From positions 4,154,001-4,218,000 of the forward strand of contig NZ_CP039432.1 in the NCBI RefSeq assembly GCF_005484805.1: 64,000 bases of DNA, read 5' to 3'. Under the pieces are notes generated by a model. The model was not told where the DNA came from, ran no database searches, and saw nothing but the letters and a program-made list of their open reading frames with translations. The stretch is from Rhodococcus sp. SGAir0479. GTDB taxonomy: Bacteria > Actinomycetota > Actinomycetes > Mycobacteriales > Mycobacteriaceae. The position numbers and the translations under genes are program-made. This document shows positions 4,265 through 50,967 of this stretch, in pieces; the first letter of the stretch is position 1, and each line of letters begins with the position of its first letter.

Positions 4265-4629
4265 TGCGTTTTCCCCTTCGCGTCGGGCCGACCCCTCGCG
4301 GTCGGCCGTGTGACCTGCACCATAACGCTTGTCGGCCGGTTCGAGGGGGCGGCGGAGCGGGTGGGTTCACCAAGGTGCTCGCCGAAAAATCTTGTGACCG
4401 CGTTTCCCCAGTTGGCAGCGCCTTTTCGTGATTGAATCCACGCCAGTTGCACATTTGTCCAAGAAAGTGTGCCGGAACTCTGGACACCCGACCCAAGCGC
4501 GTGGATACTTCCAACTGCCTGTTGGTCAACCGTCCAGTTGGTTTACGACGCTCCCGCGGGTCCGACCAATACGCAGGTACGTCCCGGACGTCTCCCGGGG
4601 TGGTGCCCGTAGGAGGGGGTGAACCGACA
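4265..4629. promoter_or_regulatory. Intergenic region with repeated CCAGTTGG motifs upstream of the WxL-like cluster
   Basis: This 365-base gap separates the divergent SDR gene from the WxL-like operon. It contains CCAGTTGG at 4408-4415, CCAGTTG at 4443-4449, and an inverted pair CCAACTG (4511-4517)/CCAGTTGG (4534-4541). The four copies within 134 bases look like binding sites for one regulator. No confident -35/-10 pair was identified. AGGAGGGGG at 4610-4618 is the ribosome site of the first gene. Confidence 0.4.
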
Positions 4630-5523
4630 ATGCGATGCCTGGCCGTACTCGCCACTGCCGCGCTGCTGTCCGTCAGCGGGGCCGCGGTGGCGTCCACCGC
4701 GCCCGCAGCTCCGACGGCCACGGCCGGAATCGCGAACAGCGGAATCGGTATCGAGCTCACGGATGCGCCGGGCCAGGCCGACATCGTCGAAAATCCTGCG
4801 CCGGGAACATCGATCACTCGGCACGTGCGGGTTCACAACAAAACAGGTGCCGCACAGTCGGTTTCCGTCTACGCCGGACCCGCGAGCATCGTTAACGAGA
4901 CGTTCTCGGTCGAGCCGGCCGGCGAGACCAATGCGCTCACCTCATGGACCACCATCGACAAGCCGACCGTGCGACTCGACAACTGGCAGTTCGAGGATGT
5001 GGCCGTGGTGATCACCGTGCCTCCGGATGCGCCGTCCGCGACGTTGTACGGTGCGATCTGGGCGGCGATCGGCGGTAGTCGATCCGGCGTGCGTATGGAC
5101 GTTACGGTGGGTGGCGACAACGGTCCGGCAGCGGACTTCGTGATCACCGGCATCGTGCCGGAGCGTAGGTCCGAGGAGTCGGTGGCCGTGCTCGCGACCG
5201 TGGCCAACACCGGCGGACGCCCGATCGACATCGCCGGCACTCTGCGGCTGAGCGACGGCCCAGGGGCAATGTTCGTCAACGCCGTTCCCGCACAGCCGAC
5301 CAGGCTCGCGGCGGGCACCACTGGAACTGTGTTGTTCGTCGTGCCGGACAGTGCATTACTGCCGGACGGCCCGTGGACGGCCAAGGTTCGGCTCAAGAAT
5401 GGCTACTTCACACACGAGTTCCGAGAAGCAATCACGTTTCCGGACAAGCCGTCCGGAGGCGGTGACAATCCCACGTCGTCGCTGGGTTCGCTCGGTTCGA
5501 CGGGCTCGTTCGGCGGAAATTAG
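4630..5523 (+). CDS. WxLIP-like secreted protein (DUF916/DUF3324-type)
   Basis: A 297-residue exported protein. The signal peptide is residues 1-27 (MRCLAVLATAALLS... then AVAST). The next domain has the DUF916/WxLIP peptidoglycan-binding pattern: TRHVRVHNKT, YAGPASI, ETNALTSWTTI, and VPPDAPSATLYGAIW (about residues 60-150). A second domain (about 160-275) starts at GPAADFVITGI and has the TLRLSDGPG...DGPWTAKVRL pattern of the DUF3324/host-binding half. Unlike classical WxLIPs and the paralogue at 6344, it has no C-terminal membrane anchor but ends in a Gly/Ser tail with SLGSLGS. ATG at 4630 follows AGGAGGGGG. It is first in a four-gene run; the role is inferred as surface anchoring of the WxL-like partners. 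Confidence 0.75.
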   Translation: MRCLAVLATAALLSVSGAAVASTAPAAPTATAGIANSGIGIELTDAPGQADIVENPAPGTSITRHVRVHNKTGAAQSVSVYAGPASIVNETFSVEPAGETNALTSWTTIDKPTVRLDNWQFEDVAVVITVPPDAPSATLYGAIWAAIGGSRSGVRMDVTVGGDNGPAADFVITGIVPERRSEESVAVLATVANTGGRPIDIAGTLRLSDGPGAMFVNAVPAQPTRLAAGTTGTVLFVVPDSALLPDGPWTAKVRLKNGYFTHEFREAITFPDKPSGGGDNPTSSLGSLGSTGSFGGN

Positions 5524-5672
5524 CGAGAACTGCTCTGCATCGACATGGGCATCGAGATTGAGTTCTGACGATTTTGGCAGCTAGTTAACCCACGCGGGAT
5601 CACTCGGGTCAGTCCGCGCGGGGAGCGCAATGACAGTTACTCCGGCCCGATCCCCGACAGAAGGACGAACCC

Positions 5673-6278
5673 ATGCGTAAGAAGCTCATCGCGGCGGCGG
5701 GCCTGGCCGCAACCGCCGGCCTACTGGCCCCCGCGGCGATCGCCAACGCCGCCGACACCCCGGCCACCCCGGCAGACTCGAAGAACACCACGGTGACGAT
5801 GACCGTTGCAGGCCAAGGAGGTGACCTGCGCATCACGGCTTCTGCCGGGTCGATCACCCTGACCCCGAACCTGGGGAACAGCAATGTTCAGGGTCAGTTC
5901 GGCACGGTGACCGGGATCAACGACGGCCGGACGAACGTCTCTCCGCGTAACTGGGTGGCGAGCGTGGCGATGACCGACCTGACAACCGGTGGCGCCAGCC
6001 CGGCGACGATCTCTGCGGACAGGGTCTACTACAAGGTGACCGGCCCCACCTGGGATTCCAACGGAACACGAGAGAACCTCGCGAGCGACTGGGTTGCCAT
6101 CGGTAGCCAGTCGGTTCCGGTCTACAAGCGCGGTGGGCAGACGTACGTCGTCGGCCAGTACACCTCCTGGACGCCGAACATCAAGGTCGAGCTTCCCACC
6201 GTTGACCAGAACGGAACGCAGCTCCCCGCAGTGCCGGCTGGAACCTACACGGGAACGTTGACCACTTCCGTGATCTGA
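5673..6278 (+). CDS. WxL-domain-like secreted protein
   Basis: A 201-residue protein with a clear signal peptide (MRKKLIAAAGLAATAG to AANA|A, about 27 residues). The mature part is all-beta with FGTVTGINDGR...NWVASVAMTDL around residues 80-110, matching the first WxL block (TVTDNRG..GWxL), although the WxL Leu is replaced by Ala (W-V-A). The C-terminus PAGTYTGTLTTSVI is typical of WxL domains. In Firmicutes such domains bind peptidoglycan and WxLIP partners non-covalently; the same role here is inference. AAGGACG precedes the ATG. It lies 149 bases after the WxLIP-like gene and is followed by a strong hairpin. Confidence 0.7.
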   Translation: MRKKLIAAAGLAATAGLLAPAAIANAADTPATPADSKNTTVTMTVAGQGGDLRITASAGSITLTPNLGNSNVQGQFGTVTGINDGRTNVSPRNWVASVAMTDLTTGGASPATISADRVYYKVTGPTWDSNGTRENLASDWVAIGSQSVPVYKRGGQTYVVGQYTSWTPNIKVELPTVDQNGTQLPAVPAGTYTGTLTTSVI

Positions 6279-6294
6279 CCGCAAAAACTAACGA

Positions 6295-6325
6295 GCTGGG
6301 CCAGGGTCGGCCTCCCTGGCCCAGC
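6295..6325 (+). terminator. 12-bp hairpin inside the WxL-like cluster
   Basis: GCTGGGCCAGGG (6295-6306) pairs perfectly with CCCTGGCCCAGC (6314-6325) over a seven-base loop. It lies 17 bases after a WxL-like stop codon and 18 bases before the next gene. There is no U-run, so it may be a partial terminator or an mRNA-stabilising hairpin that gives the upstream WxL-like gene more transcript. Confidence 0.65.
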
Positions 6326-6343
6326 CGCCACAAGAGGGAACCG

Positions 6344-7399
6344 ATGACATTCTTCCGGGGAAACAAGATGCCTCGAATGCTTGTATTCGCAGTGCTTTTC
6401 CTTGCGTTCAATCCAGCCCGTGCGATCGCGGCGCCGAGCTCGGCCGATCCTGCAACGTCCGCGGGATCGATCGGTATCCGGCTGGCAGATGTCGCGGAAG
6501 ACCTCAAAGACGACCCGCGGGCAAACATCTACATCACGGACAATGTCCCACCCGGGGGGAAGGTGACCCATCACGTCACCGTCAGCAACAACACCGACTC
6601 TCCGCAGACGATCGACGTCTACGCGGGGCCTGCGACGCTGACCGACGGCACATTCGCTGTCGCGGAACGTGGAGAAACAAACGCCCTCACGTCCTGGATC
6701 ACCGTTGGGCAGGCAAACGTGCACCTCGATCCGGGAAGTGCGGTTGATGTTCCGGTGGTCATCGACGTGCCGAGCGATGCGCCCGAGGTGGAACAGTACG
6801 GGGCGGTCTGGGCTTCGCTCGCGCAAACTGCGGAAGGCGGCGTCACACAGGTATCCCGGGTGGGTGTCCGCGTCTACCTCTCCGTCGGTGAGGGCAACGG
6901 ACCGCCTGCCGATTTCAGGATCGACAGTCTCGCGCCGACGCGAGGTACCGACGGCAGCGCATTGCTTGTCGCACATGTCCAGAACACCGGCGGTCGTGCC
7001 GTCGACATCTCCGGAACGATGAACCTTTCCGGTGGTCCCGGCGGGCTGACGGCGGAACCGGTCAACGCGGACTACGCAACCATTGCCCCGGGAGCGGAAG
7101 GCAAGGTGGAGTTCGTTGTTCCGAACAGTGCTTCCCTCCCGGCCGGCCCGTGGCAAGCCCAAGTCAAGTTGGAGAGCGGGTTCAACAAGCACGACCTGTC
7201 CGCGTCCGTCACCTTCCCCGACAGGGGTGTCGGCGATGCTGTCGGGGCATCGGGCTCCGGATGGTCGATCGGTGCGTGGGTCGGTCTCGCCATCGGTGTG
7301 CTTGTGGTGGTGCTCGCGTTCGCGGCATACGTCGTGCGCAAGCGCCGCGGTCATGCCGGTAATCTGTCGACGGGATCATCGTCCCAGTTGGATCGGTAG
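6344..7399 (+). CDS. Membrane-anchored WxLIP-like protein (DUF916/DUF3324-type)
   Basis: A 351-residue paralogue of the protein at 4630. It has a signal peptide (about residues 1-29, ending AIAA), a DUF916-like domain (VTHHVTVSNNTDS, YAGPATL, ETNALTSWITV, VPSDAPEVEQYGAVW), and a second domain from GPPADFRIDSL to SVTFPD with the TMNLSGGPGG and LPAGPWQAQVKL motifs. It then has one transmembrane helix (about 308-328) and a basic cytoplasmic tail (RKRRG), the classical WxLIP architecture. The ATG at 6344 is preceded by AGAGGGA; ATG 6368 is an alternative. The next gene starts 3 bases after its stop, so the two are translationally coupled. Confidence 0.78.
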   Translation: MTFFRGNKMPRMLVFAVLFLAFNPARAIAAPSSADPATSAGSIGIRLADVAEDLKDDPRANIYITDNVPPGGKVTHHVTVSNNTDSPQTIDVYAGPATLTDGTFAVAERGETNALTSWITVGQANVHLDPGSAVDVPVVIDVPSDAPEVEQYGAVWASLAQTAEGGVTQVSRVGVRVYLSVGEGNGPPADFRIDSLAPTRGTDGSALLVAHVQNTGGRAVDISGTMNLSGGPGGLTAEPVNADYATIAPGAEGKVEFVVPNSASLPAGPWQAQVKLESGFNKHDLSASVTFPDRGVGDAVGASGSGWSIGAWVGLAIGVLVVVLAFAAYVVRKRRGHAGNLSTGSSSQLDR

Positions 7400-7402
7400 C
7401 GA

Positions 7403-8119
7403 ATGACGTACACACGTCGGGTGACGATCAGCGTGGTTGCGCTTGTCATCGCAGGCGCTCCGATGGCGGCCGCCGAACCGGCCCTCTCGACCACCGGTGA
7501 AACGACGACCCCGGCACCGACCGCATCAGCGAGTGAGCCTCCGATTGCCGAGATGCCTTCGGGCTGCGGGGATGAGAGCGGCGCGTCCACGACTTCTCCA
7601 TGCCTCACGACCTCTCCCCGCCCGACGACGTCGACGAGCACCAGACCCGTGCGGACAACGGCGGCACCGGCGAGTACAACTGCGCTCCCGACGCCGTCCG
7701 AGACCGAACCGACGGTCCCCACCACCGTTGCCGGTTCAGGTGAGTTGCGGGTCGACACCGGGCCGTTCGTCGTGACCGGTCCGGTGCGGGCGGGCGCCGT
7801 CGTCCCCGGAACAATGGACGTCACCGTCACGGACAACCGCCGAGATGGCGCAGGATGGACCGCGGCCGTCAGGGCCACGGCCATGCATGGCGCCCGCGGC
7901 AACGCGTTCTCGCCGGGCCCCGACTCCTTCTATCGCGCGCAGAACACACAGTGCAGCGAGTCGGCTGGGCAGGTTCCGCTGAGCGAGGATGCGGTGATTG
8001 TTGTTGTCGCGCCTGCGGAATGCTCTGCCGCGACGTGGTCTGCCGACGTCGGCATCGCCGTCCCTGTCGACGTGGCCGCCGACACGTACTCCCTCACGAT
8101 CACCCACTCGGTGTACTGA
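7403..8119 (+). CDS. WxL-domain-like secreted protein with Thr/Pro-rich linker
   Basis: 238 residues. The signal peptide is about residues 1-24 (ending MAAAE). Residues 25-110 are a disordered Thr/Ser/Pro-rich spacer that could span the cell wall and be O-glycosylated. The C-terminal domain (about 112-238) carries TMDVTVTDNRRDGAGWTAAVRA, an almost canonical first WxL motif except that the Leu of W-x-L is Ala, and ends DTYSLTITHSVY. Two Cys (about 182 and 203) could form a disulfide. It starts 3 bases after the anchored WxLIP-like gene, which makes it the likely ligand of that protein. Export is well supported by sequence; the binding role is inference. Confidence 0.72.
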   Translation: MTYTRRVTISVVALVIAGAPMAAAEPALSTTGETTTPAPTASASEPPIAEMPSGCGDESGASTTSPCLTTSPRPTTSTSTRPVRTTAAPASTTALPTPSETEPTVPTTVAGSGELRVDTGPFVVTGPVRAGAVVPGTMDVTVTDNRRDGAGWTAAVRATAMHGARGNAFSPGPDSFYRAQNTQCSESAGQVPLSEDAVIVVVAPAECSAATWSADVGIAVPVDVAADTYSLTITHSVY

Positions 8120-10258: not shown

Positions 10259-10843
10259 ATGCCTGACATCCATCCCGCCGCGACCGACGCGAACTTCGAG
10301 CTGCTGCAGACCGACCCGTTCTTCGACGTGGTGGTCGACCTGATCGCCGGTTACCTCGCGTCGGCGTTCGACGACCCGGCCGGGGCGGAGGTGGACGGAT
10401 GGACGCTGAGCTGCCTGCCGACCACGAACAAGACCCCCGAACGCCAGCGGTTGTTCACCCTGAACATCGGGCCGATGGAGGTGCTCTACGTGGAGCGCTA
10501 CACCGAGAACGGTGAGACCGTCGACTTCCGCACCGTGCTGTACACGTCGCTGTCGGCGCTGCAGCGCGCCACCGGGTACAGCCTCGACGGCCTCACGTTG
10601 GCCAACCCGCTGCTGCGTTTCCGCAAGACGGAGCTGGCCTCCGCGGACGGTGACGGTGTGCTGATCGACTGGTTCCTGTCCGACGAGGGCGCCGACGAAC
10701 AATTCTTCGAGCTGCCGCTCGACGAGGCGACGATCCGTCCGCTCGCCGAGCGGCTGGTGAGCAAGGGGCGCGGCCCGTACGCGCAGTACCACAACCGCGC
10801 GTTCGCCCAGCACGTGCTCGACGCGATGAACGACGATGAGTGA
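10259..10843 (+). CDS. Conserved hypothetical protein, coupled to a DUF6308 gene
   Basis: A 194-residue soluble protein I do not recognise. It has no signal peptide or membrane segment, and is rich in Asp/Glu/Leu with two halves: a predicted alpha/beta part to about residue 100 (LFTLNIGPMEVLYVERY) and a helical C-terminus (ATIRPLAERLVSKG). Its last 8 bases overlap the start of the DUF6308 gene (ATGAGTGA), indicating translational coupling. The two proteins may therefore act together. Confidence 0.6.
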   Translation: MPDIHPAATDANFELLQTDPFFDVVVDLIAGYLASAFDDPAGAEVDGWTLSCLPTTNKTPERQRLFTLNIGPMEVLYVERYTENGETVDFRTVLYTSLSALQRATGYSLDGLTLANPLLRFRKTELASADGDGVLIDWFLSDEGADEQFFELPLDEATIRPLAERLVSKGRGPYAQYHNRAFAQHVLDAMNDDE

Positions 10844-11477
10844 CATGGCGATCCGCCTTCCGAAGGTGCTCGCGTCCGGTGACGACGCCGCCGTCGACGT
10901 GTTGCGTCGGTACTTCGCCGAACCGCTCGTGAAGACCGGGTACCTGCGCAGCGGGGCCCGGTGGGACACGTGGGATTCGACCGGGACCCGTGAGCGGGAC
11001 GCCGACGTCTTCACGGCGGACGACCTCGTGGCGGTGACGATGCTGTCGGTCGAGGTGTCCCCGGACGGCGCGCAGATCCTGTTGCGGGAGCGCGGCGAGG
11101 AGTTCGCCGAGCTGCTGGCCGCCGTCGGCCCCGACCGCGACCTCGTCGACGAGGTGGACGAGCTGACCGCGGAGTCTCCGGTGTGCCGCCTCGAGACGGC
11201 GCTGTGGACGGTTCCGAGCATCGGCCGCACCGTGGCCTCGAAACTGATCGCCCGGAAGCGTCCGCGTCTGTTCCCGGTCTACGACCGCGTGATCGGCGAG
11301 GTCCTCGACACCAAGCAGGCGCACCTCGATCCCGTGCGGCAGGCGCTGCGTGCGAATGACCGCGAATTGCACCGTCGACTCGTCTCGCTGCGCGAACAGG
11401 CCGGGTTGGACGAGGCGGTTCCGGCGCTGCGGATCCTCACGGTCCTCGCCTGGATGCAGCTCAAGGCGCCGCGCTGA
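10836..11477 (+). CDS. DUF6308 family protein
   Basis: 213 residues, soluble and helical. DDLVAVTMLSVEV near residue 65, LWTVPSIGRTVASKLIARKRPRLFPVYD near 135-160 and ILTVLAWMQ at the end match the pattern of actinobacterial DUF6308 proteins. The middle block looks like a helix-hairpin-helix-type element (IGRTVASKLIARKRPR) followed by a PVYD turn, which hints at nucleic acid contact, but this is inference. It overlaps the preceding hypothetical gene by 8 bases. Confidence 0.65.
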   Translation: MSDMAIRLPKVLASGDDAAVDVLRRYFAEPLVKTGYLRSGARWDTWDSTGTRERDADVFTADDLVAVTMLSVEVSPDGAQILLRERGEEFAELLAAVGPDRDLVDEVDELTAESPVCRLETALWTVPSIGRTVASKLIARKRPRLFPVYDRVIGEVLDTKQAHLDPVRQALRANDRELHRRLVSLREQAGLDEAVPALRILTVLAWMQLKAPR

Positions 11478-27270: not shown

Positions 27271-27718
27271 CCCATTACAGAGGGCGCGTGTCGATTGGCG
27301 GATAGCGCTTCCGTTGAACGGAACACATCTTTCGGAGGTGAGGGCGTCGGCGCGCGGCGGGTGGGCGTCGACGCGGACTCGAGGACGGCCTCCGTGCCCC
27401 ACGGACCCGGATCGCGCACCGAGAAAAACTGTCCGGCAAACGAATTGGTCGGATTGGTCCCGAATGGCGGATAATTCCGTGACCGCCTTCCCGGAATTGA
27501 CCGTATTTCGCGCACCCAAGTTTTCGCGAAATCAATTCCACCTCGGGTTTGCGGATCCAGATGTTAGATTGCTTCCGCCCATATGCATTGGGGGACGCCA
27601 TCTTTTGGTTGGGCTCTGGCTGGGGTGAAGAAAGGGTGGCGCCGCGGCTCCTTTGTCTCCCTGCGGCTGGGCGAATCTCGATGAAATGCTGCGCACGCCA
27701 ATCGAGGAGGTCATATAC
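27271..27718. promoter_or_regulatory. Gene-free leader region of the repetitive surface protein, with structured 3' end
   Basis: About 450 bases without a supportable gene. It is less GC-rich than the neighbours. Near the 3' end GCCGC...GCGGC can form one hairpin (about 27640-27666) and CTCGAT (27677-27682) pairs with ATCGAG (27701-27706), which overlaps the GAGGAGG ribosome site (27704-27710). The leader could therefore limit translation of the downstream gene. No promoter hexamers were identified with confidence. Confidence 0.4.
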
Positions 27719-28591
27719 ATGCCAGCCCACAGGAAATCGGATACACGCACGCTGAAGATGAAGACCCGCATCATGGTTGCGGCGACGGCGGTCGCCTCCC
27801 TCGCTCTCGGCTCACCGGCACTCGGCCTGGCAGCGCCAGGAAGTGCGACGGACAGTCTCGGCGGCAGTTTGGGTAGTGCGACGGACAGTCTCGGGGGCAG
27901 TTTGGGTAGTGCGACGGACAGTCTCGGGGGCAGCTTGGGTAGTGCCGGTAGTGACGAGGGCAGCCTGGGAAGTACCGGGTGCGGTGAAGGCAGTCTGGGC
28001 AGCGAGGAAGGCAGCTTGGGTAGCGCCGAGGGCAGTCTCGGGAGCGCGGAAGGCAGCCTGGGTAGCGCCGAGGGCAGTCTCGGAAGCGCGGAAGGCAGCC
28101 TGGGCAGTGCCGAGGGCAGTCTCGGAAGCGCCGGGTGCGGAAGCCTGGGGAGTGCGGCACTGGGCAGCCTGGGAAGTTCCGGTTCGAGCGGCAGTGCCCT
28201 CCTCGGCAGCGCCGGAGTGGGTTCACTCGGTTCGCTCGGTTCGCTCGGCTCTCTGGGGTCCAGTGGCTCCGGTGGTTCCGGAATCCCCGGTGCCCCCGGC
28301 GTTCCGGGCCCCGGCGCCCCTGGCCCCGGAGCGCCCGGCCCCGGTGCTCCCGGTCCCGGAGCGCCCGGCCCCGGTGCCCCCGGCCCCGGTGCTCCCGGTC
28401 CCGGCGGCGGAATGCAGCCCGCTCCGCCCAGCGGTGGGGGCCAGGTAGGCGTGGTGCCGATGGGTGGCGTCGAGGCCGGCGGTACGGGCGTCTCGGAAGA
28501 TGCGCCCAACGGATTCCTGGTGGGCGGCGCCTTGTTGCTCGCGGCCGCGGCGGGAGCGACTGCAGTGAGCAGGCATCGCCGTCCGTCGTAG
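27719..28591 (+). CDS. Repetitive Gly/Ser-rich surface protein with GSLGS repeats, collagen-like tract and C-terminal membrane segment
   Basis: 290 residues; ATG 27719 lies eight bases after GAGGAGG. There is a signal peptide (about residues 14-39, MKTRIMVAATAVASLALG to LAAPGS), then three 11-residue repeats GSATDSLGGSL (41-73), a degenerate stretch with two Cys, one GSEEGSL and five GSAEGSL heptads (94-135), further SLGS units to about 185, a collagen-like G-x-P tract (GPGAPGPGAP, about 188-225), a Gly-rich linker, and one hydrophobic segment (about 264-283) with the basic end RHRRPS. There is no LPXTG. It is probably a fibrous cell-wall-spanning protein; function unknown. It resembles exported repetitive proteins such as mycobacterial Erp in style only. 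Confidence 0.8.
   Translation: MPAHRKSDTRTLKMKTRIMVAATAVASLALGSPALGLAAPGSATDSLGGSLGSATDSLGGSLGSATDSLGGSLGSAGSDEGSLGSTGCGEGSLGSEEGSLGSAEGSLGSAEGSLGSAEGSLGSAEGSLGSAEGSLGSAGCGSLGSAALGSLGSSGSSGSALLGSAGVGSLGSLGSLGSLGSSGSGGSGIPGAPGVPGPGAPGPGAPGPGAPGPGAPGPGAPGPGAPGPGGGMQPAPPSGGGQVGVVPMGGVEAGGTGVSEDAPNGFLVGGALLLAAAAGATAVSRHRRPS
27839..28123 (+). repeat. Tandem coding repeats (33-bp and 21-bp units)
   Basis: Three 33-bp units (27839-27937, encoding GSATDSLGGSL) are followed, after a degenerate part, by six 21-bp units (27998-28123, encoding GSEEGSL once and GSAEGSL five times). The units are nearly identical in DNA, so unit number may vary between strains by slippage or recombination. Confidence 0.85.
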
Positions 28592-47863: not shown

Positions 47864-49120
47864 ATGGTTCGATCATCGATTCGTGGCCTCGTCACGAGGG
47901 TCACGGCAGGCGCGTTACTCGTCGCCGCCGTCGGCCTCGGCCACACCGTCGCAGGCCAGACCGTGGCCGCCGCCGCCCCGCGTGACAGTGCCACGCAGAC
48001 GGTGGTGAACGACAACATCACGGCCACCAAGACGGTGTCCCCGGCGACCGCGTATCGCGGCGAGGACGTCACGGTCCGGATCCGCCTCGAGGCCGACGGT
48101 ATCGTCGACCGCTACCTCCGGGAGTTCACCGATTACGCGCCTGCCGGCTACGAGCTGCGGTCGGTCTCGGCCACAGTGTGGCGCAGCGGACCGCTCTTGG
48201 GTAATTGGAACAAGGGCGGCCAGTACGACGGCACCCCGACCCAGGACGCCAACGGCGCCGTCAGAGTGAACTGGCTCGGTGACGGTGACTGCGCCGGCGC
48301 AGCGTGCAAGCTGGTGCTGGTGAACAAGGGTGCCGATCTGACGTTCACGTACAAGGTGCGCGGTGACGCCGCCTACGGGCCGCGCCAGACCGGCATGTCG
48401 ATGAACGTCTACGCCTTCATCGGAACCCAGATCTGGAACCCGATGACGCGCCTGAACCTGTCGGTGGCCCAGCCGACGGTCGCGACCACCACGACGGTGT
48501 CGGTCCCACCGGCGGCCACGGTCGGGGCGACGGTGCCGCTCATCGCGGCGGTCAGCCCGTCCGACGCGACCGGCAGCGTCCAGTTCAAGGAAAACGGCGT
48601 CGACATCGGTGGCCCGGTGACCGTCTCGGGCGGCAGCGCCCGCCTCGACCACGTCTTCGCGGCCGCGGGCACCCGTCCGATCAGTGCCACCTTCACGGGC
48701 ACCGGTGCCTACGTGAACTCGAACGGCGCAGCGAGGAACATCGTGGTGACGGTGCCCAGCCCGGACGACAAGGCGACCACCACCATCATGACCTCGCCGT
48801 CGACTGCCGTGACGGGCACTGCAATTACTTTGTCGGCGCAGGTCTCCGGGGCATCCCAGTACCCCGGAACGGTCCAGTTCTACGACAACAACGCCCCGAT
48901 CGGCGGACCGGTGAGCGTCGACACGTCCGGCGTCGCGGCGCTGAGTCACACGTTCACGACGGTGGGTGCGCACGACATCGTCGCGGTGTACTCGGGTGGC
49001 GCGGGCGTGCTCGGTTCGGTGGCCGACCCGCAGACCGTCAACGTCACGCAGGGCGACCCGGGTACCGGTCCGTGGCCGGAAGTCACCGGATCGCTCGGCA
49101 GTCTCGACCTCGGCATCTGA
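47864..49120 (+). CDS. Secreted Ig-like repeat surface protein A
   Basis: 418 residues. Signal peptide about 1-41 (to VAAAAP). N-terminal domain (about 45-205): NITATKTVSPATAYRGEDVTV, DYAPAGYELRSV, WNKGGQYDGTPT, two Cys (CAGAAC); this part is about 70% alike to the paralogue at 49156 and looks like a DUF11-type adhesion domain. Then two Ig-like (Big_3-type) repeats starting TTTTVSVPPAATVGA and TTTIMTSPSTAVTGT. The C-terminus is GSLGSLDLGI, with no anchor. It probably acts as a surface adhesin or structural protein. ATG 47864 follows GGAAGG. Confidence 0.85.
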   Translation: MVRSSIRGLVTRVTAGALLVAAVGLGHTVAGQTVAAAAPRDSATQTVVNDNITATKTVSPATAYRGEDVTVRIRLEADGIVDRYLREFTDYAPAGYELRSVSATVWRSGPLLGNWNKGGQYDGTPTQDANGAVRVNWLGDGDCAGAACKLVLVNKGADLTFTYKVRGDAAYGPRQTGMSMNVYAFIGTQIWNPMTRLNLSVAQPTVATTTTVSVPPAATVGATVPLIAAVSPSDATGSVQFKENGVDIGGPVTVSGGSARLDHVFAAAGTRPISATFTGTGAYVNSNGAARNIVVTVPSPDDKATTTIMTSPSTAVTGTAITLSAQVSGASQYPGTVQFYDNNAPIGGPVSVDTSGVAALSHTFTTVGAHDIVAVYSGGAGVLGSVADPQTVNVTQGDPGTGPWPEVTGSLGSLDLGI

Positions 49121-49155: not shown

Positions 49156-50967
49156 ATGACGCGATCGTCACTACGATCGGCCGTCTCGCGGGTACTGGTC
49201 GGTGCCGTCGCGGTGGCGACGCTGGGGCTCGGCCAGGCGGCGCTCGCACCGGCGACCGCGTCGGCCGCCGAGTCGAGCTCACAGACGGTGTCCACCAGCA
49301 ACATCACGGCCACCAAGACGGTCACGCCCGCGGCGGCGCTGCCGGGGCAGACCGTCGAGGTCAAGGTTCGTCTCGAGGCCAGCGGCACGGATCGGTACAT
49401 GCAGGACTTCACCGACTACGCACCCGCCGACTACGTGCTGCAATCGGTCACCGCACGCGTGTGGCGGAGCGGGCCGGGCCTCGGTGACTGGAACAAGGGC
49501 GGCCAGTACGACGGCACCCCGACCCTGGACGCGTCGGGTGCGGTCGCGGTGAACTGGCGCGGTGGTGGCAACTGCGCCGGCGGCGGATGCCGACTGGTGT
49601 TGCTGGACAAGGGTGCCGACCTCACGTTCGTCTACAAGGTCCGCGACGACGCGTCGATCGGCCCGCGCGAGGCCGGCATGTCGTTCCACGTCTACTCGTT
49701 CAACACCGAACAGTCCTGGAGGCCGTTGAACAAACTCTCCCTCTCGGTGGCCCCCTTCGCGACGACGACCACCGTCCCGTCGCTGTCGCCGGTCACCGAG
49801 GGGGAGACGGCCACCCTGAAGGCCGGCGTGGCGCCGGCCGCGGCGACCGGCACCGTCCAGTTCCGAGACGGCGGCGTGAACATCGGTGTGCCCGTGCCGG
49901 TCTCGAACGGGCAGGCGCAGCTACCCCATACGTTCGAGGCAGTGGGCGACCACGACATCTCCGCCGTCTTCACCGGCACCGGACAGTACGCCGGCTCCAC
50001 GTCGGGTACGACGAAACTGCAGGTGACCGAACGCCCCACCCTCGCCACCACCACGACGCTGCAGGCCCCGTCGTCGGCGGTGCAGGGCACCCCGGTGACG
50101 ATGACGGCGTGGCTGGATCCGGCGCACGCCGTCGGCAGCGTGCAGTTCAAGGAGAACGGCGCTCCGATCGGCGCGCCGGTCCCGGTCAGCGGCGCCGCCG
50201 CGCAACTGTCGCATGCGTTCACCCAGCTCGGAAGTCGCAGCATCACAGCGGAGTTCACCGGCGGTAAGGGATTCGCGAACTCGACCTCCACGTCCCGCGC
50301 GATCTTCGTGAGTGCACCGGTCACGCCCGACGTCGCCACCGCCACCTCGCTCACCGTTCCGCCGACGGCGCAGACCGGTCAGCCGGTGACGCTCACTGCG
50401 CACTTGGACCCGGCGGCCGCGGTCGGCACGGTGCGGTTCCGCGACAACGGCGCCGACATCGGCGATCCGGTTCCGGTGTCCGGCGGTGTCGCGAGTCTGC
50501 AGCACATCTTCGCGACGTCCGGCGCACACGACGTCGTCGCGGTGTTCACGGCCGGCGCCGGGTTCCTCGGCTCGACGTCGGCGGGCAGGACGGTCGTCGT
50601 CACCGACCCGGCACCGGGGGACGTGGCATCCACGACCACGCTGACGGTGCCGGCGACCGCGTCGGTGGGGCAGTCGATCCAGTTGACCGCTCAGATCTCG
50701 GGGGCCGAGACGCTGCCGGGTTCCGTGCAGTTCTACGACGGCGCCACCCCGATCGGGACGCCGCAGGCGGTGTCCGGCGGCACCGCGGTACTGACGTACA
50801 CCTTCCCCACCCCGGGAGCGCGTGAACTGACGGCCGTCTACTCCGGCGGGCCGGGAGTCGTCGGATCCTCGTCGGATCCGCAACCCATCCAGGTGACCGA
50901 AACGGACACCGGCGGGCCGGGCGGCACCGGATCGCTCCTCGTGGGGATCCCGCCGGCCGGCTCCTGA
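49156..50967 (+). CDS. Secreted Ig-like repeat surface protein B
   Basis: 603 residues, ATG after CGAAGGGAAAATGAC. Signal peptide about 1-40 (ASA|AE). N-terminal domain (about 42-200) closely matches protein A (same WNKGGQYDGTPT and CAGGGC). Four Ig-like repeats follow, starting TTTTVPSLSP, TTTTLQAPSS, TATSLTVPPT and STTTLTVPAT, each with GTVQF-type and LxHxFxxxGxHxIxAxFTG motifs. The C-terminus is GSLLVGIPPAGS. The two genes are 35 bases apart, a tandem duplication with repeat-number expansion. A hairpin terminator ends the unit. Confidence 0.85.
   Translation: MTRSSLRSAVSRVLVGAVAVATLGLGQAALAPATASAAESSSQTVSTSNITATKTVTPAAALPGQTVEVKVRLEASGTDRYMQDFTDYAPADYVLQSVTARVWRSGPGLGDWNKGGQYDGTPTLDASGAVAVNWRGGGNCAGGGCRLVLLDKGADLTFVYKVRDDASIGPREAGMSFHVYSFNTEQSWRPLNKLSLSVAPFATTTTVPSLSPVTEGETATLKAGVAPAAATGTVQFRDGGVNIGVPVPVSNGQAQLPHTFEAVGDHDISAVFTGTGQYAGSTSGTTKLQVTERPTLATTTTLQAPSSAVQGTPVTMTAWLDPAHAVGSVQFKENGAPIGAPVPVSGAAAQLSHAFTQLGSRSITAEFTGGKGFANSTSTSRAIFVSAPVTPDVATATSLTVPPTAQTGQPVTLTAHLDPAAAVGTVRFRDNGADIGDPVPVSGGVASLQHIFATSGAHDVVAVFTAGAGFLGSTSAGRTVVVTDPAPGDVASTTTLTVPATASVGQSIQLTAQISGAETLPGSVQFYDGATPIGTPQAVSGGTAVLTYTFPTPGARELTAVYSGGPGVVGSSSDPQPIQVTETDTGGPGGTGSLLVGIPPAGS

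Follow-up and report, generated by a model that had tools for sequence, protein, structure and literature searches.

Four adjacent genes for exported proteins, here called A, B, C and D, lie in a 64,000-nucleotide stretch of the genome of Rhodococcus sp. SGAir0479 (contig NZ_CP039432.1, positions 4,154,001 to 4,218,000 of the forward strand; hereafter the window, whose own numbering is used below). Three of them, B, C and D, probably form a divergent actinobacterial branch of the WxL/WxLIP surface complex. The relatedness is based on sequence profiles, on gene order and on the predicted fold of C. The source genome measures 4.97 Mb, and we treat its host as a Prescottella.

The four open reading frames share one direction (+ strand) and occupy positions 4630-8119. 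A and C are paralogues (43% identity across 305 positions, E 2e-64), confirming the row of four genes with two paralogous products described in an earlier annotation made from the letters alone (the sequence-only reading). Gene A (4630..5523) encodes an exported WxLIP paralogue of 297 amino acids (aa) that has no membrane helix. Gene B (5673..6278) encodes a small exported WxL-like protein of 201 aa, with a signal peptide and a domain at ∼5751-6275, and gene C (6344..7399) a WxLIP-like protein of 351 aa, with a signal peptide, two immunoglobulin (Ig)-like domains and a C-terminal membrane helix. Gene D (7403..8119), separated from C by 3 bases, encodes an exported protein of 238 aa.

C has two of the features by which a WxLIP is recognized: a signal peptide with a C-terminal transmembrane helix (aa 309-335, 7268..7348, +; hydropathy and AlphaFold2 (AF2)), and two Ig-like domains in the WxLIP arrangement in the AF2 predicted fold. 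In a fold comparison of the AF2 model, WxLIP takes rank 1, ∼4 Z units over the best pilus chaperone, so that the predicted fold is not one unrelated to WxLIP. Domain 1 (aa 43-181, 6470..6886, +) is WxLIP_PGBD-like, has a sub-threshold PF06030 match at aa 68-154 and closes with a terminal hairpin (aa 150-181, 6791-6886, +); across 29 C-type rows, PF06030 matches 19 at E <= 0.1 (best 2.6e-4). Near its N-terminus, at 6509-6544 (+), stands DDPRANIYITDN, which we compare with the NQIDKxxxYFDLK motif of WxLIP; the letters differ, and the place was matched by eye. Domain 2 (aa ∼191-293, 6914..7222, +) stands in place of WxLIP_HBD and is matched by fold only. The DUF916- and DUF3324-like halves earlier ascribed to these proteins are thus upheld to different degrees, the first by the sub-threshold PF06030 match and the fold of C, the second (PF11797) by fold with no sequence match. 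Two C-like genes of other loci may be noted: one at a further P. equi DSM 20307 locus (L063, 6446-7408, −) lacks the stretch around the last domain 1 strand and is possibly decaying, and C-like fragments in two frames next to an intact copy (L066, ∼10771-11224, +) look like a decayed copy.

B and D give no useful similarity in a direct BLAST comparison (E 0.14). A profile of B relatives retrieves D at E 2.3e-9, along with the C-terminal parts of other D-like proteins, and D is therefore best described as a spacer joined to a B-type domain. The spacer (aa 27-108, 7481-7726, +) places 82 Thr/Pro/Ser-rich residues, counted by eye, between the signal peptide and the WxL-like domain (aa 109-238, 7727-8116, +), which carries the motifs TVTDNRRDGAGWTA and TWSADV and a Cys pair; the corresponding motifs of B are NDGR...NWVA and SWTPNI. 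At the first Trp the sequences read W-V-A in B and W-T-A in D, and at the second W-T-P and W-S-A. Asp-x-Arg ahead of the first Trp has been described for WxL proteins by Siezen et al. 2006; here Asp and Arg are invariant in 25/25 rows of the B-type alignment and D has TDNR, the Gly of the Asp-x-Arg-Gly form being absent from window B and D. The Pfam WxL family PF13731 matches 11 of the 25 rows at E <= 0.1 (best E 3.1e-9), and a second B-like protein of the same genome (L052) reaches 30.0 bits, above the cut-off of 25. Two more distant actinobacterial proteins above the Pfam cut-off have W-x-L itself at the first Trp (GWNLT in L108, GWQLT in L110). Judged by their sequences, B and D are relatives of WxL on a divergent branch and should not be counted as typical members of the family. 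The sequence-only reading had already recognized two secreted WxL-like proteins, Ala for the Leu of W-x-L in both (which holds at the first Trp), a Thr/Pro spacer in the 238-residue protein and the lack of a large partner domain; on the last point, the Pfam scan and the sequence give no recognized domain ahead of the WxL-like part of D. As a separate observation, 13 D proteins (L067, L068, L070, L072-L075, L139, L141, L142, L146-L148) have two Cys in the WxL-like part in addition to a Cys pair in the spacer; both pairs are also present in window D, unlike in most other Prescottella D proteins.

Gene order provides the third line of evidence. Within the bacterial family, single-sequence searches found relatives of C in 19 of 121 genomes (6 of 31 genera), of D in 10 and of B in 8. 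The 19 genomes supplied 26 loci (the window and L052-L076) with 29 C-type genes; a D-only partial match (L077) and the decayed fragments in L066 were left out of the counts, and the profiles were built in part from the same loci as were counted. Each of the 26 C-type genes with a membrane helix (by hydropathy) is immediately preceded by a WxL-like gene, and 17 are followed by a D-type gene; none of the three helix-less C-type genes (A of the window, A of L053, and L059) has an upstream WxL gene. For 24 loci from named genomes, 12 of which repeat genomes already in the family set, the upstream WxL gene is present in 24 and a D-type gene in 21, the three without D (two Cryobacterium, one Pseudarthrobacter) retaining the B-C pair. 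Across the phylum, the C profile matches 66 of 396 genomes (E <= 1e-5), many of them partially. From 17 of these genomes we took 20 loci, mostly high-scoring, and ∼5 kb to either side (a contig end truncates L193). In 17 of the 20 the frame next to C on its upstream side is WxL-like, a count that excludes L206 (weak match, other frame), L208 and L211; no WxL-like match (E <= 1e-3) on the strand of C lies downstream of it at any of these 20 loci. What is conserved is a B-C core, to which D is often added. The neighbourhood survey thus bears out co-occurrence for this core; the four-gene set including A, which the sequence-only reading had taken as the unit, turned up nowhere but in the window, in P. 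defluvii and in two Rhodococcus. Likewise, its WxL/WxLIP system in a mycolic-acid actinobacterium is supported as to relatedness, but the core is not confined to such hosts, B-C pairs occurring in Cryobacterium and Pseudarthrobacter. Stop-to-stop frames of 505-960 aa with a WxL-like C-terminal part were seen in L202, L207, L209, L210 and L212. One further locus used below, L135, belongs to Rhodococcus sp. IEGM 1379; its Cyanobacteriota label looks wrong.

Several results weigh against assigning B, C and D to WxL/WxLIP. In the Pfam search window B matches nothing at E <= 1, while the D domain scores 14.5 bits for PF13731 (cut-off 25) and C 17.2 bits for PF06030 (cut-off 27.3). On C, fn3_5 outscores PF06030 (E 3.5e-4); DUF4232 (PF14016) matches 6/29 C rows better than PF06030 (best E 1.4e-8), falling in domain 2 of L075, the sole row where its position was seen; and PF11797 is missing both from the matches of C (E <= 1) and from the list of 22 families obtained with the 29 C rows. 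The two Trp-x-Leu motifs that define WxL proteins are found in neither B nor D, and in the B rows the first Trp is retained in 19/25 and the second in 22/25. A single-sequence PDB search with C reaches WxLIP only at E 1.8, behind PcoC at 0.31; PDB searches with the B and D profiles find no WxL chain; and the structure prediction covers C alone, B and D being placed by sequence profile and gene order. These scores would suit unrelated Ig-like exported proteins whose likeness to WxL is a convergence of beta-sandwich sequences: the window proteins fall under every curated cut-off, and fn3_5 and DUF4232 do better as just described. We regard convergence as very improbable nonetheless, given the paralogue in the same genome above the WxL cut-off, the B rows that match PF13731, the gene order in 26/26 family genes and 17/20 phylum loci, and WxLIP at fold rank 1 for C.

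The root-mean-square deviation of C is also larger to WxLIP (6.3) than to the best pilus chaperone (4.0), for which the inter-domain angle may be the cause. C might accordingly be a donor-strand chaperone tethered to the membrane, with B (or D) as the subunit that it builds into a fibre, in an usher-less analogue of chaperone-usher pili where clamping is only one step. This seems improbable to us: the fold comparison places WxLIP ∼4 Z units above the pilus chaperone, a common fold proves no function, no donor extension is recognized in B, and no usher is seen by eye among the four proteins (no genome-wide usher search was made).

We thus prefer a WxL/WxLIP-type complex, which might be built as follows. 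C would be anchored in the plasma membrane through its C-terminal helix, the rest of it lying in the periplasm or wall. Domain 1, by its last strand and hairpin, would complete the incomplete beta-sandwich of a WxL-like domain (B itself, or the C-terminal domain of D), as predicted for Enterococcus WxLIP-WxL, and the soluble WxL proteins would thereby be clamped to the wall. B would serve as the small wall-binding subunit. D would replace the large WxL partner, its Thr/Pro-rich and probably glycosylated spacer reaching outward through the arabinogalactan. A would be a former dock, now without the helix and without the parts presumed to contact WxL, and ending in an SLGS tail. The most likely role of the complex is surface attachment or wall decoration. 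A rival reading is an adhesin complex, in which C domain 2 and the D spacer would attach to a host or to a polymer; for the Enterococcus WxLIP, Hassan et al. 2023 propose that the second domain binds the host. The genus moreover includes P. equi. Relatives occur also in Cryobacterium, Pseudarthrobacter and Antrihabitans, which are environmental genera; D has no recognized adhesive domain, and domain 2 of C has no sequence match to PF11797. We regard the adhesin reading as possible but rather unlikely.

Between B and C lies a stem-loop (6294..6326) of 13 pairs with G-T allowed, or a perfect stem of 12 bp, with no T-run behind it on the + strand. Perfect stems of >= 9 bp occur in 8 of 18 B-C gaps vs 5 of 56 control gaps. 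When the 18 gaps (those of 16 of the 26 family genes, with L135 and L136) were folded, 12 had z below -2.5 and two had -2.08 and -1.21. We read the hairpin as a device that may yield more B than C: since it separates the two genes in the message, B is probably made in excess. It counts against this that four of the 18 gaps show no more folding than shuffled sequences do (z above -1), that L063 is weak, and that in 10 of the 26 helix-bearing genes the gap (outside the folded set and mostly < 50 bases) is mostly too short for such a stem. By eye, the hairpin keeps its position with a different sequence in the window, L053, L055-L057, L060, L062, L064-L066, L135 and L136.

A is the most unusual member of the set, and it is not the simple second WxLIP that had been supposed. 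As described earlier, it ends in an SLGS-rich tail, SSLGSLGSTGSFGGN (5476..5520, +), where C has its helix, and kindred tails end its three orthologues; with these, which come from P. defluvii and two Rhodococcus, window A makes up a 100/100 clade. In all four proteins the KDDPR-containing segment of domain 1 is absent (two rows aligned, two by eye) and the hairpin before the last domain 1 strand is shorter by >= 9 residues, window A having lost most of it. According to a prediction for Enterococcus (PMC10599100), a hairpin of domain 1 inserts into WxL and so completes the sandwich. The hairpin shortened in A may be the same one, its contact role being taken from that prediction. With its presumed WxL-contacting parts and helix lost, A reads as a WxLIP paralogue that no longer serves as a dock. 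It probably acts released or attached via its SLGS tail.

The tail belongs to a repeat common in the host genus. DNA coding for SLGSLG has 98 matches in 11 Prescottella genomes (1-14 each) vs 11 in 17 others of our own choice (0-2 each); the reversed pattern, run as a control, gave equally high counts but is a nearly identical repeat and hence uninformative. Among 36 SLGSLG loci read (L121-L129 and L154-L180 among them; several are one gene twice), 26 frames have a signal peptide by a crude rule, and many repeats are close to the C-terminus or soon after the signal peptide. O-mycoloylation sites are Ser- and Gly-rich and flexible, with no strict consensus, according to PMC11066868, so that a mycolate anchor on the A tail is thinkable. 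A would then be a WxLIP turned mycomembrane-side component, held outside by an SLGS tail esterified with mycolic acid on its serines, a conjecture that we regard as unlikely. Antrihabitans and Rhodococcoides-type genomes, which we take to have mycolates, have 0-1 SLGSLG matches, and this counts against the anchor. Hoyosella was dropped as a mycolate-free control, the reports of missing mycolic acids being mistaken (PMC5936774). Other occurrences of the repeat deserve record. SLGSLGS sits between domain 2 and the helix in a second C-like clade (L054, L058, L059, L061), in which L059 lacks both the helix and the upstream WxL gene. SLGSLG is also present in what are presumably a short porin-like peptide (L124) and a cholesterol-oxidase-like protein. 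In the window, an exported-looking 320-residue frame missed by the gene caller (27629-28588, +) has a long GSLGS array, a GAPGP repeat and a C-terminal hydrophobic stretch, and two adjacent exported-looking proteins (47864-49120 and 49213-50967, +) have a common NITATKTVxPA near the start, the first ending in GSLGSLDLGI.

Codon use is less GC-rich in the four genes than in their neighbours, as the sequence-only reading had noted; its suggestion of transfer finds no clear support. GC content at third codon positions (GC3) is 0.782 in A, 0.822 in B, 0.727 in C and 0.774 in D, 2.1 to 4.7 standard deviations below the 0.898 +/- 0.036 of the 51 other called window genes of >= 120 aa (two evident miscalls removed). 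Orthologues in five other Prescottella loci also have GC3 under that of their neighbours, clearly in P. defluvii (L053) and less so in four, and in the tree C lies inside a Prescottella/Rhodococcus clade. On these two grounds a recent transfer from Firmicutes was judged unsupported. The low GC3 could equally reflect transfer or the weak codon selection on surface genes that are old; because the distribution is patchy (19/121 family genomes), an older transfer is still conceivable. Of the surroundings, a promoter scan gave one weak sigma-70-like site (4481-4509; 1 found vs 0.4 expected), which was not used, and a search for viral relatives of C confirmed none. A link to copper genes was rejected: the neighbours concerned in L057, L060 and L062, which we take to be ycnI/copC/copD-like, are on the opposite strand and not at the window locus.

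The core pair is thus present in many Actinomycetota, and a lineage form of it, with the spacer protein D and the dock-less A, in bacteria with an outer mycolate membrane. It provides a defined gene set for asking how proteins are held in, or cross, the peptidoglycan-arabinogalactan layer, with A as a natural deletion test of the WxLIP parts that contact WxL. If the mycomembrane reading of A were true, this diderm actinobacterium would have components of a single operon at each of its two membranes, C in the plasma membrane and A outside, with the D spacer between. The SLGS repeats would then mark proteins of Prescottella for export or for the mycomembrane, as a tag specific to the lineage.

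WxL proteins are described as limited in spread and found mainly in gut commensal Firmicutes, with >91% of the 938 sequences then known (PMC9772566). Among the titles listed in the literature searched (mostly not subscription papers), none concerns WxL clusters of Rhodococcus-type bacteria, although such proteins may already carry a name in annotation pipelines. PapD/FimC-type periplasmic pilus chaperones share with C an Ig-like domain pair and presumed strand donation. For the O-mycoloylated mycomembrane proteins of Corynebacterium, a possible likeness extends to the A tail only, in Ser/Gly-rich flexible stretches (PMC11066868); the SLGS repeat is unexpanded in the other genera tested, and modification of the A tail is conjectural. 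Within the same genome, the second WxL-like pair (contig ∼4397535-4399333; L052) has the same B-C order and a B that passes the Pfam WxL cut-off, but neither A nor D beside it. Among the closest systems are the Enterococcus WxL/WxLIP clusters (PDB 9i25, 9i1y) and the csc clusters of Lactobacillus plantarum, which like the window join a membrane-anchored two-Ig protein and exported WxL proteins in one cluster, and with which it has in common the signal peptides, the D-x-R..W signature and the predicted C fold. The adjacency of A-D matches their composition if divergent WxL-like proteins count as WxL. In contrast to these clusters, window B and D have no Trp-x-Leu, and by eye the four window proteins include no CscC-type protein of 500-900 aa and no LPxTG protein; the window adds the spacer protein D, the helix-less paralogue A and a mycolate-bearing host. 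The system is real and conserved, and its unusual parts are D and, above all, A.

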